64,000 nt of DNA from Candidatus Methanogranum gryphiswaldense (GTDB taxonomy: Archaea > Thermoplasmatota > Thermoplasmata > Methanomassiliicoccales > Methanomethylophilaceae). A program made the translations under genes and the position numbers. The notes beneath the pieces were generated by a model. It had not been told where the DNA came from. It saw nothing but the letters and a program-made list of their open reading frames with translations, and did not search any database. Location of the stretch: assembly GCA_019262145.1 (NCBI GenBank), contig CP076745.1:989093-1053092 (forward strand), given 5' to 3'. This document shows, piece by piece, positions 34,983 through 39,325 of this stretch (positions are counted from its first letter, which is position 1; each line of letters starts with the position of its first letter).

Positions 34983-35413
34983 CTTTTTCCCACCTATGTC
35001 GCGACACCATACGGACTATTAACTGTACAGGCAACAAGGTTTATCAATACATCTGAACTATAATTCAGTTATTCTCTGCAATCAACGATCATATTCCGTA
35101 TAACTAAAATATGATAGTTATTAAGTGCACAACGAGACCGTATCTCCATTAAAATGCGGGGTACACAAATACCTGAATCCACATATTTCCAGATATCATC
35201 AGTGTTATTGTCAAAAAACTATCAACGACAACATTATTGACATTGTCCATTCTGGTAATTCCCACCTGCACTATACTACTATCATTAGGTACAGAAGAAT
35301 GCGTCTAAAACAGAATCATCATGTATTGTCATTCTTAAAAGAAAAAAATCGGAAGACTTATTCTGACAGAAATTTCCAAAAAGAAATTAATATTGAATCG
35401 GTCTCTTCTGCCC
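34983..35413. other. AT-rich intergenic region with divergent promoters
   Basis: This 431-base stretch separates the minus-strand isomerase gene and plus-strand cgi121. A plus-strand open frame at 35125-35463 looks spurious: it is compositionally odd and overlaps cgi121 out of frame. AAATTAATAT at 35384-35393 lies 21-30 bases before the cgi121 ATG and is a likely TATA box, giving a leaderless mRNA. I saw no tRNA, repeat or conserved RNA in the rest. Confidence 0.5.
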
Positions 35414-35878
35414 ATGCACAAGATCGTGGTCGTCGGTATAAGAGGCAACGCTTCTTTCGATGATATCGTGTCTCACTTCACATCCATTGGCGGGGATGTT
35501 GTACTTTTTGACCCAGACATGATATGTGGAAAGTCCCACATCATATCTGCTGCGATGCACGCAGAAAGAGCATTCTCACAGGGACATCCGCGCTCGAAGA
35601 ACATCCTTACTGAAACGATACTCTATGCTGCATTTGAAAGGCAGATCGGAAAGGCTATGAAGAAGATGGGGCCCAAACCTGGAAGGAACGAGTATGTTGC
35701 CTGCATCTTCAATGCAGATGTTACCGGCATTGAAAAAATAGGAATGATGCTGGATGACAGCCTGTGTGATATATCTAAAGAAAAGATGAGGAACATAGGC
35801 ATCTCTGTGAACGATGACTTTCCTCTTGAGGACCAGGTATTGGAATCCATCGCGATGGTTGACCTTTTGAAACAATAA
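35414..35878 (+). CDS. cgi121: KEOPS complex subunit Cgi121
   Basis: Cgi121 binds the tRNA 3' end and recruits it to KEOPS for t6A synthesis. The 154-residue protein begins MHKIVVVGIRGNASFDD and has the family block LFDPDMICGKSHIISAAMHAERAF, then NILTETILYAAFERQIGKAM and YVACIFNADVTGIEKIG. ATG 35414 follows a TATA-like element at leaderless spacing; the open frame begins at 35393. Pcc1 of the same complex is at 10251, in another operon. Confidence 0.85.
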   Translation: MHKIVVVGIRGNASFDDIVSHFTSIGGDVVLFDPDMICGKSHIISAAMHAERAFSQGHPRSKNILTETILYAAFERQIGKAMKKMGPKPGRNEYVACIFNADVTGIEKIGMMLDDSLCDISKEKMRNIGISVNDDFPLEDQVLESIAMVDLLKQ

Positions 35879-35938: not shown

Positions 35939-36343
35939 TCAGTTATCTGGCACGAACTTGAATCCGTAGTGGATGACACCAGCTGCACCGTCTGCGTCCA
36001 GTTTACGCAAAACCGCACGCACAGGCATGCCGATCTCGATCTTATCAAGATCAACATCGACGAGCTGTCCGGATATGAGGACACCTTCTCTGTTCTTGAT
36101 CATCGCGACGGCATACGGTTTCTGCATATTATTGCACTCCGGTGCCTCGTGAATGACGGAGAACGAATAGACCTCCCCATGCCTGTCCAGCTTGACCTCT
36201 TTCATCTTGCCGATGCCTGCCCTGCGGCATGCAGGACAGAACGAACGTGAGGGGAAGAAGATCTTTCCGCAGTGCTCGCATTTGGTTCCCTGGAGGTTGT
36301 ACCTTCCGGGGATCTCTCTCCACTCCTTTGCTACCGATGACAT
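35939..36343 (-). CDS. DUF35 zinc-ribbon/OB-fold protein of the HMG-CoA synthase complex
   Basis: The 134-residue protein has an N-terminal zinc ribbon, CEHCGKIFFPSRSFCPACRR, and a C-terminal OB-fold. In the archaeal thiolase-HMG-CoA synthase complex this family bridges the two enzymes and holds the pantetheine channel. It is the last gene of the operon and overlaps the thiolase gene by one base (ATGA arrangement). Its four cysteines are intact. Confidence 0.9.
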   Translation of the reverse strand: MSSVAKEWREIPGRYNLQGTKCEHCGKIFFPSRSFCPACRRAGIGKMKEVKLDRHGEVYSFSVIHEAPECNNMQKPYAVAMIKNREGVLISGQLVDVDLDKIEIGMPVRAVLRKLDADGAAGVIHYGFKFVPDN

Positions 36344-37512
36344 CAGATCGCCTCCATGATACTTACGGTGACAGCGGAACCGTTTCCTCCGACAGACTGT
36401 GCCAGTCCGTACTTGGCTCCTTTGACCTGTCTCTTGCCCGCTTCATTCCTGAGCTGCTCGGTGACCTCCACGATCTGTGCCACTCCTGCGGCTCCGATCG
36501 GATATCCTCTCGCCTTCAAGCCTCCGGACGTGTTGATGGCTATCTTCCCCGAATCGAAGTGCGTCTCACCGTTGAGGAATGCCTTTCCTGCCTCTCCCTT
36601 CTTGTAGAAGCCGAGGTCCTGAAGCGCCATGACACCTGCCACGGTGTAATCATCGTGGATCTCAGCGAAGTTGATGTCGTGTGCCTTGATTCCGGCCATC
36701 TCATAAGCTCTCTTGGCAGCGGCCTGTGTCGCCTTGAATTCAGTTATCGAATCCCTCTGGAACAATGCCAATGTATCGCTTGCCTGTGCGACCGCTGCGA
36801 CCTTGACGTACTTGTCGGTATGCTTCTTGGCATCCTTGAGGGGACAGAGTATCACTGCTGCTGCTCCGTCGGTTATGGGTGCGCAGTCGAATACGCCGAG
36901 AGGTGTCGCGACTGGACCTGATTTCAGTACTGTGTCGAGAGGTATTCCTTTCCTGAACTGTGCGCCTGGGTTGAGTTCGCCGTGGAAGTGACTGTTGACC
37001 GCAACGGATGCTATCTCCTCACGTGTTGCCATCTTGTCGTGTATCATCCTTCTGGCGATCATCGCATAGTTCGATGCGAGTGTGATGCCCATTCCAGCCT
37101 CCCACTCTGCATCCGCCGTCGCATCCATGACCGAGTTGATCGATGCATCGTCGAGATCTGTCATCTTCTCAGCACCTCCAACCATCACGGTCTCGTGAAG
37201 GCCAGATGCAACTGCCATTACGGCCTCTCTGAATGCGACACCACCGGATGCCCCTCCAGCCTCCACTCTTGTCGCAGGTATGTGGTTGGTAGCCATTCCC
37301 GAATAATCGGCGACCAATGCATCCACATGCTGCTGATTGATGAAACGTCCCGCAGACATGTTGCCTATGAACAAACCGTCGATCTCGTCTCCCGAGAGAT
37401 TTGCATCCTCGATAGCCTTCATTCCTGCCTCGATACCGATACTCCTGAACGATTTGTCCCAGAGTTCTCCGAATTTGGTGGCTCCTATTCCTATGATTGC
37501 TACGTCTCTCAT
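36343..37512 (-). CDS. Archaeal thiolase (acetoacetyl-CoA thiolase family) with altered catalytic residues
   Basis: By family and position this is the acetyl-CoA acetyltransferase that feeds HMG-CoA synthase. The 389 residues begin VAIIGIGATKFGELWDKSFRS, as in archaeal thiolases. However, the nucleophile region reads TRVEAGGASGGVAFREA, where related archaeal enzymes have VEAACASG, so the cysteine is Gly (codon GGG). The catalytic-His motif reads GGLKARGYPIGAAG, with Tyr (TAT) instead of His. The HDCF-type motif reads EIHDDYTV. The fold and neighbours are otherwise normal. It may be an inactive structural member of the complex, or use another mechanism. It starts 4 bases after the synthase gene. 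Confidence 0.85.
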   Translation of the reverse strand: MRDVAIIGIGATKFGELWDKSFRSIGIEAGMKAIEDANLSGDEIDGLFIGNMSAGRFINQQHVDALVADYSGMATNHIPATRVEAGGASGGVAFREAVMAVASGLHETVMVGGAEKMTDLDDASINSVMDATADAEWEAGMGITLASNYAMIARRMIHDKMATREEIASVAVNSHFHGELNPGAQFRKGIPLDTVLKSGPVATPLGVFDCAPITDGAAAVILCPLKDAKKHTDKYVKVAAVAQASDTLALFQRDSITEFKATQAAAKRAYEMAGIKAHDINFAEIHDDYTVAGVMALQDLGFYKKGEAGKAFLNGETHFDSGKIAINTSGGLKARGYPIGAAGVAQIVEVTEQLRNEAGKRQVKGAKYGLAQSVGGNGSAVTVSIMEAI

Positions 37513-37516
37513 GTTA

Positions 37517-38569
37517 TCACTCCGACATTATGATCTTGCCCTTGAATTTGGCATAGGTACCGTAGTCGACATAGACTGGATTGGCCATGACCTTCTCGAG
37601 CGTGGGGGCATTCTCCCTCTTGTAATCCTTGATCGCATCTGTGACGGTTATATCGAAAGCATCGCTTCCTGCACCGGAACCGTAAGATGTGACGAAAATC
37701 CTGTCACCGGGCTTTGCATGGTCCAGTATGTTAGCGAGTCCTAACGGGACCGCTCCGCTGTATGTGTTGCCTATGTTAGGTGTCAGCAGACCGCATTCGA
37801 CCTGCTCCGGTGTGAATCCCAACTGCGAAGCGACCCTCGTGGGGAATTTTCCATTGGGCTGGTGGAAGACAGCGTATGTGTAGTCCTCAGGCTTCGTGTT
37901 CGTGGCATCCAACAGCATCTTTGCTGCGGATGTTATGTGCCTGAAGTATGCTGGCTCTCCTGTGAACCTTCCTCCGTGCAGGGGATATGGCTGTCCCTCC
38001 CTCCTCCAGAAGTCAGGTGTGTCAGTGGTAAAGGACACGGTCTTGTTGATCTTGGCAATAATGTTCTCGCTTCCGATCAAAAATGCCGCTCCGCCTGCGG
38101 ATGCAGAGTATTCCAAAGCATCCCCGGGTGCTCCCTGTGATGTGTCCGCTCCGATGGCGACACCATACTTCACCATGCCGAAACCTACAAGTCCCATGCA
38201 TGCCTGGATGGCTGCTGTTCCTGCTTTGCAGGCGAATTCCATATCGACCGCCGTCATTGCAGGTGTAGCATCGATGGATTCTGCCACAATGGTCGCAGTC
38301 GGTTTGACCGCATAAGGATGGGATTCCGAACCGACATATACCGCTCCGATGTCCTGGGGGTCCACCTGGGGCACCCTTGCCATCATGTTCCTAGCGGCCT
38401 CTGTGGCGATGGTCACAACATCCTCATCGGGCGATGGGACCGATTTCTGATAGATCATCAGACCTTTTCCCATGCCTTTTCCGTCGACTCCCCAGATCCT
38501 TCCGATCTCCTCGGGTTTGATCCTGTAACGGGGAACATATGCTCCGTAACTTACGATTCCTACATCCAT
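37517..38569 (-). CDS. Hydroxymethylglutaryl-CoA synthase (archaeal)
   Basis: The enzyme condenses acetyl-CoA with acetoacetyl-CoA to make HMG-CoA for mevalonate and archaeal isoprenoid lipids. The 350-residue length is that of the archaeal type. The catalytic residues appear intact: Glu in [16 protein letters not shown], Cys in [14 protein letters not shown] and His in [16 protein letters not shown]. It begins directly after the regulator gene ends and is followed by the thiolase and DUF35 genes, matching the known channelled complex. Confidence 0.93.
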
Positions 38570-39262
38570 TCAATTCCCTTCCTTAAGTTTGTTCATTCTC
38601 TCCACTATCTCTTCCACCGAAAGAGTTGTTGATACGAGCGGTATGCCCTCCAATTTCGCCAGCTTGATAGCAAGCTGATCGGTCTCATCGGGACGCTGAT
38701 ATACCACCATCGCCGGTGTAAGGGGGTGTGCGCGGATGGCCACCATCGGAGAACGTCCGTAGTGGACATTCGTGAAAATAAGTGCCCTTTCGATGCTCCA
38801 TCCGTATATCTTGAGGTAATCCTCAGAGCTAAGATTCAGTATCGCCTTTATGGAATCCACGATCGTGTATCCATATATCCTCTTCACAGGTGTCTTCTCC
38901 GTATTGAGGTTCTTTCCGTTTATTGCCTCGATGAACTTGTGTTCATCGACGCCCCCGGCAAATTCATCCATCGCCAAAATGCAGTCCATACGATAATCTG
39001 GCTGATATCTCGATATGACCAATGAACCCTTCTGAGCGTCCAGCTTTATGAAGGCCTCGACCATCTTTTTGACAACAGCAACACCTGGTGATTTTCTGCG
39101 TCCGGACTCATAATCGCTGATGACCGAATGCGAGATCCCCATGGTCTCTGCAAGTTCATGCTGCGAAAGTCCGAACTCCTCCCTCCATTTACGGATGGCC
39201 TTTCCGGGATCGGGGGATAAGGTGATCTCCCCGGCGATCTTTTCCTTTAGTTCGCCTACCAT
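38570..39262 (-). CDS. XRE-type transcriptional regulator of the mevalonate operon
   Basis: The 230-residue protein has an N-terminal helix-turn-helix (about 28-75: FGLSQHELAETMGISHSVIS then DYESGRRKSPG). A C-terminal ligand-type domain of about 150 residues contains ALIFTNVHYGRSPMVAIRAH and VVYQRPDETDQLAIKLAKLE, ending LVSTTLSVEEIVERMNKL. It is the first gene of the operon and abuts the HMG-CoA synthase start without a gap, so it is probably a local, perhaps metabolite-sensing, regulator. ATG 39262 was chosen over TTG 39274. The ligand is unknown. Confidence 0.85.
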   Translation of the reverse strand: MVGELKEKIAGEITLSPDPGKAIRKWREEFGLSQHELAETMGISHSVISDYESGRRKSPGVAVVKKMVEAFIKLDAQKGSLVISRYQPDYRMDCILAMDEFAGGVDEHKFIEAINGKNLNTEKTPVKRIYGYTIVDSIKAILNLSSEDYLKIYGWSIERALIFTNVHYGRSPMVAIRAHPLTPAMVVYQRPDETDQLAIKLAKLEGIPLVSTTLSVEEIVERMNKLKEGN

Positions 39263-39325
39263 TGTCGGTAACAATCCATATCATTATTTAATGATGTCGA
39301 ATCATCGATACGTCGATTAACGTAA

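Follow-up and report, generated by a model that had tools for sequence, protein, structure and literature searches.

The closest described counterpart of the genes considered here is the three-subunit complex of Methanothermococcus thermolithotrophicus (6ESQ, 6ET9), formed by a thiolase, an HMG-CoA synthase and a DUF35 protein. Cys85 is the active cysteine of its thiolase subunit, and in the solved structure CoA is bound where the three proteins meet (PMC6392133). The Friedel-Crafts acylase PhlACB (5M3K) has the same three-protein architecture with one disarmed subunit of the thiolase superfamily: the synthase-like PhlA has lost its cysteine (Gly115) and its glutamate, while the thiolase-like PhlC keeps Cys88 (PMC6392133). 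Two steroid aldolases, Ltp2-ChsH2(DUF35) and Sal-Shy(DUF35) (6OK1, 9MYR), are also DUF35-bound thiolase folds, and in these the thiolase residues have been repurposed. Sulfolobus tokodaii ST0096 (4YZO) is an archaeal thiolase-like protein that reads VDNTSGSGG at the cysteine site and is likewise Cys-less; it differs from the protein described below in keeping the GHP motif, and is more distantly related. A search of the available literature found no report of cysteine loss in the thiolase of an HMG-CoA synthase complex.

Organization of the HMG-CoA synthase locus

We analysed a stretch of 64,000 nucleotides (the window) from Candidatus Methanogranum gryphiswaldense, a member of the Methanomassiliicoccales. 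The features at its HMG-CoA synthase locus are as follows.

35939..36343, minus strand: DUF35 subunit (zinc ribbon and OB), its start overlapping the thiolase stop by 1 bp
36343..37512, minus strand: SCP2-like archaeal thiolase of the HMG-CoA synthase complex, 389 aa, predicted pseudo-thiolase (from the ORF, the 6ESQ alignment and the model)
36502..36504, minus strand: codon TAT, Tyr337, in the column of the catalytic His336 of 6ESQ (GHP motif; GHALGATG), by alignment
36649..36657, minus strand: codons of His286-Asp287-Asp288, HDDY versus HDCF, with the His retained and the Cys gone, by alignment
37252..37254, minus strand: codon GGG, Gly87, in the column of the nucleophilic Cys85 of 6ESQ, by alignment
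37517..38569, minus strand: archaeal-type HMG-CoA synthase with Glu82, Cys114 and His236 kept, separated from the thiolase gene by a 4-bp gap
38570..39274, minus strand: HTH_3 (XRE-type) regulator, directly upstream of the HMG-CoA synthase gene

The thiolase, the synthase and the DUF35 protein each have a subunit of 6ESQ as their closest solved relative. This locus and the M. thermolithotrophicus complex share the genes for the three subunits and their adjacency, the thiolase fold, the catalytic residues of the synthase and the cysteines of DUF35; they differ in that the thiolase here is without equivalents of Cys85, Cys286 and His336. The first-pass annotation had described the synthase as keeping its Glu, Cys and His and the DUF35 protein as keeping its zinc site, and both descriptions hold, with Glu82, Cys114 and His236 in place and four cysteines retained in DUF35. 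The synthase cysteine is present in 110 of 114 aligned rows, and the remaining four are taken to be distant paralogues. Relative to PhlACB the arrangement, known here from the genes, is a mirror image: there the synthase is disarmed, whereas here a disarmed thiolase stands beside an intact synthase.

Loss of catalytic residues in the thiolase

The thiolase ORF is in frame and free of stops. Its product aligns with 6ESQ_A at E=7e-101, compared with E=6e-28 for 6OK1, and the predicted AlphaFold model (pLDDT 92.9) superimposes on the 6ET9/6ESQ thiolase with a TM score of 0.96 and an rmsd of 1.4 Å. Among family models, NCBIfam PRK06064 is matched above cut-off, while NF053570 (acetyl-CoA acetyltransferase) scores 505 bits, below its cut-off of 600.

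In this alignment Gly87 stands opposite Cys85 and Tyr337 opposite His336, confirming the earlier reading of glycine for the catalytic cysteine and tyrosine for the GHP histidine without a frameshift. Sequencing error, which had been raised as an alternative, and a frameshift are both excluded, since the cysteine is missing from 56 of 56 genomes across the order. A third loss had gone unmentioned, that of the HDCF cysteine, which is replaced by Asp288 (HDDY). This loss is not diagnostic, because the Pyrococcus thiolase structure 7YVY reads HDAF and has alanine at the same position.

Distribution of the cysteine loss

In the 56 sampled genomes of the Methanomassiliicoccales the place of the nucleophilic cysteine is mostly taken by glycine and otherwise by Asp, Glu or Ala. 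The GHP histidine position is occupied by H, Y, D or N within the order, and Tyr337, found in 16 of the 56 sequences, is the feature of a subclade. Four MAGs of the order (G033, G208, G291 and G003; 90-99% complete) gave no match to HMG-CoA synthase or thiolase, absences that are probably assembly gaps.

Across the Thermoplasmatota, about 30 sampled families are without the thiolase cysteine, and ten retain it (f8, f23, f27, f29, f31, f33, f34, f36, f41 and f44); sampling was even and partial, and many of the genomes are MAGs. Other phyla were sampled through their HMG-CoA synthases. The full C-H-C-H set is kept in Methanobacteriales, Methanococcales, Methanoperedens, Micrarchaeota, Woesearchaeota and Hadarchaeota, as well as in one Eisenbacteria MAG and one Acidobacteria MAG. 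Among the Chloroflexota, by contrast, the cysteine is missing from 15 of 17 readable thiolases, being kept at loci L195 and L203. Here it is the Anaerolineae that carry an archaeal-type HMG-CoA synthase operon with a Cys-less thiolase (L189, L200-L202, L206, L208, L213, L220, L228, L229 and others), and their loss is separate from that in the Thermoplasmatota. An Archaeoglobales MAG (L169/G316) has Asp in place of the cysteine.

On unrooted trees the cysteine state changes at least 5 times (HMG-CoA synthase tree) or 6 times (thiolase tree), with the Chloroflexota extra. In both trees the Cys-keeping family f8 is nested among mostly Cys-less lineages, and this placement suggests that the cysteine was lost in parallel.

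A second thiolase as the probable source of acetoacetyl-CoA

If a Cys-less thiolase is inactive, acetoacetyl-CoA would have to come from elsewhere, and a search for a second thiolase with an intact cysteine had been proposed. The organism's own 1.517-Mb genome, which is 99.9% complete, encodes two thiolases only, that of the HMG-CoA synthase complex and the following.

C1:61054-62229: AtoB/PhaA type-I thiolase P0004, with C88, H315, H348 and C378 intact

P0004 matches 4DD5 at E=7e-133, and the Cys-His-His-Cys set is intact in 30 of 30 AtoB relatives checked. HMG-CoA reductase is encoded in the same complete genome. No match to 3HCDH_N (3-hydroxyacyl-CoA dehydrogenase) rises above the cut-off in it, which makes a role for P0004 in beta-oxidation appear unlikely.

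Among 94 Thermoplasmatota genomes, 76 combine a Cys-less thiolase with AtoB and 2 have a Cys-less thiolase and no AtoB, while the cysteine is present with AtoB in 6 and without it in 10 (Fisher p=5e-8, ignoring kinship). A phylogeny-corrected test of the association, with only 5-6 inferred state changes, gave no significance; independent pairs either agree with it or are neutral and none is reversed, although they are too few for significance. The two genomes with neither cysteine nor AtoB (G190 and G196) are also missing the TiaS-like gene that is the syntenic neighbour of AtoB, so that an assembly gap is likely, and we do not regard them as true exceptions. For G111, G150, G168 and G178, AtoB was scored as absent from having no row in the AtoB search, and this was confirmed by a thiolase profile search. 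No other type-I thiolase was found with PF00108 in the AtoB-free Thermoplasmatota genomes checked; each has one archaeal-type thiolase beside the HMG-CoA synthase, with a second full match in G054 and weak matches to the synthases.

Outside the Thermoplasmatota, two Cys-less Chloroflexota genomes without AtoB (G310 and G311) were considered as exceptions and set aside, as they carry other Cys-bearing thiolases. In the Archaeoglobales MAG, whose completeness is not stated, no other thiolase was found, and this counts against the reading proposed below.

A proposed role for the Cys-less subunit

From these comparisons we consider it likely that the protein is a pseudo-thiolase, kept as a scaffold or CoA-site subunit of HMG-CoA synthase and fed by a free AtoB-type thiolase. 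With Gly87 it would form no acetyl-Cys intermediate, and hence would make no acetoacetyl-CoA by thiolase chemistry. P0004 would make acetoacetyl-CoA instead, which would reach the HMG-CoA synthase through solution. The pseudo-thiolase would presumably still form a complex with its partners, and would be retained because the synthase requires the subunit structurally. Such a requirement is suggested by the position of the CoA site at the three-protein interface and by the company that the gene keeps: it is found at 100 of 100 Thermoplasmatota loci with a near-complete HMG-CoA synthase (the set used for the synthase tree), and it is absent in family f38, which has another type of synthase. Of the two readings offered by the first-pass annotation, a scaffold with acetoacetyl-CoA from elsewhere and a different chemistry, the former is favoured, both by the intact P0004 and by the finding of no conserved replacement catalytic residue (see below).

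More generally, we lean towards the view that the thiolase half of a channelling complex became an obligate subunit without catalysis on several independent occasions: in several Thermoplasmatota lineages, in the Anaerolineae and possibly in a lineage of Archaeoglobales. In this view a bacterial-type or other thiolase had become available beforehand. The subunit would persist by completing or regulating the CoA site of HMG-CoA synthase; channelling would have been abandoned repeatedly, with the architecture frozen in. Family models label the Cys-less proteins as thiolases or acetyl-CoA acetyltransferases, and the first isoprenoid step is probably put on the wrong gene when pathways are modelled for Thermoplasmatota, host-associated methanogens among them. 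The natural series from cysteine without AtoB, through cysteine with AtoB, to Cys-less with AtoB lets one ask why a dead subunit stays, and also bears on whether channelling of acetoacetyl-CoA matters.

Sequence constraint and alternative functions

Redundancy-reduced sets of 29 Cys-bearing and 63 Cys-less archaeal thiolases were compared site by site. Mean entropy is 1.26 bits in the former and 1.38 bits in the latter, and the Cys-less set gains a median of 0.03 bits at the ~94 sites that Cys-bearing enzymes conserve, with many other conserved residues unchanged. The dN/dS of the thiolase (0.02-0.18) is similar to that of HMG-CoA synthase, and the thiolase is under strong purifying selection. 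The gain is 2.28 bits at the GHP histidine (His336), 1.97 bits at Cys85, where it follows from how the sets were divided, and 1.4-2.4 bits at F141, G157, M153 and N375 (6ESQ numbering); label shuffles, which ignore kinship, never matched the gains at 85, 336 and 141. Apart from Cys85 and His336, the relaxed sites are inferred to be pocket-lining. No conserved substitute is seen in the alignment of Cys-less thiolases at either catalytic position, with G/D/S/E/T/A at the cysteine and H/D/N/Y/Q/R/F at the GHP histidine. Position S207 of 6ESQ (Ala211 in P0001) is Ser in 28 of 29 Cys-bearing enzymes and Ala in 87% of the Cys-less archaeal ones; it lies in the loop that in thiolases contacts the CoA pantetheine.

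Two residues of the HDCF motif have been kept (6ESQ numbering): of the 63 Cys-less archaeal enzymes, 57 retain His284, and Asp285 is conserved in them to at least 90%. This retention of His284 exceeds what a fully dead site needs and counts against complete inactivity: the site may still bind acyl-CoA or carry out some chemistry. The protein could thus be a partial enzyme: making no acetoacetyl-CoA itself, it would use His286 and the CoA site to bind acetyl- or acetoacetyl-CoA and pass this on to the synthase, and acetoacetyl-CoA from outside would still be channelled. The shared position of CoA in the solved complex fits such a role as well. However, F141, M153, G157, N375 and T341, which are probably pocket-side, vary strongly though conserved in Cys-bearing enzymes, and we consider this alternative unlikely.

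Repurposing of the pocket, with other residues catalysing another kind of C-C chemistry such as an Ltp2-like (retro-)aldol reaction via Tyr337, seems quite improbable. An Ltp2-type aldolase was attractive at first: Ltp2, too, has a thiolase fold and is bound to DUF35 (PMC12329534), its catalytic acid Tyr344 falls in the Tyr337 column in a hand alignment (GGQLGEAY vs GGLKARGY), His286 and Asp287 are retained, and Asp288 and Tyr337 occur together in 15 genomes of several genera. Nevertheless, the catalytic base of Ltp2 and Sal, the tyrosine of YD(H/C)(F/Y) (YDHF/YDCY), is His286 here (H286-D-D-Y), and the column of the acid, which in Sal is instead Cys304 of YDCY, is variable, with Tyr337 confined to its 16 of 56 members of the order and H/D/N/Q/R/F elsewhere. 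We rejected the aldolase on these two grounds; in addition, no substrate pathway fits the operon, whose synthase keeps all of its catalytic residues. A Rhodococcus plasmid 'lipid-transfer protein' tried as a stand-in for Ltp2 was discarded, being closest to type-1 SCP2 thiolase.

Finally, an active thiolase that uses another nearby cysteine, C210 or C223, is very doubtful: these are present in 46 and 52 of 56 Methanomassiliicoccales, but they occur also in Cys-bearing relatives (15/16 and 5/16, with C223 in 6ESQ too), C210 is missing in 10 relatives, the GHP histidine varies as well, and no universal cysteine was gained alongside the loss.

Neighbouring genes and other synthases

Families f32 and f38 (L136-L143) have a longer, distantly related HMG-CoA synthase (frames of ~520-600 aa) in place of the archaeal complex. 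On the opposite strand, the gene adjoining DUF35 encodes the KEOPS subunit CGI-121 (35393-35878, plus strand), relatives of which lie at 11 of the 120 loci examined. The HTH_3 protein (38570-39274, minus strand) has relatives at 70 of 120 HMG-CoA synthase loci checked, nearly all of them archaeal, and is probably a conserved regulator of the HMG-CoA synthase operon.
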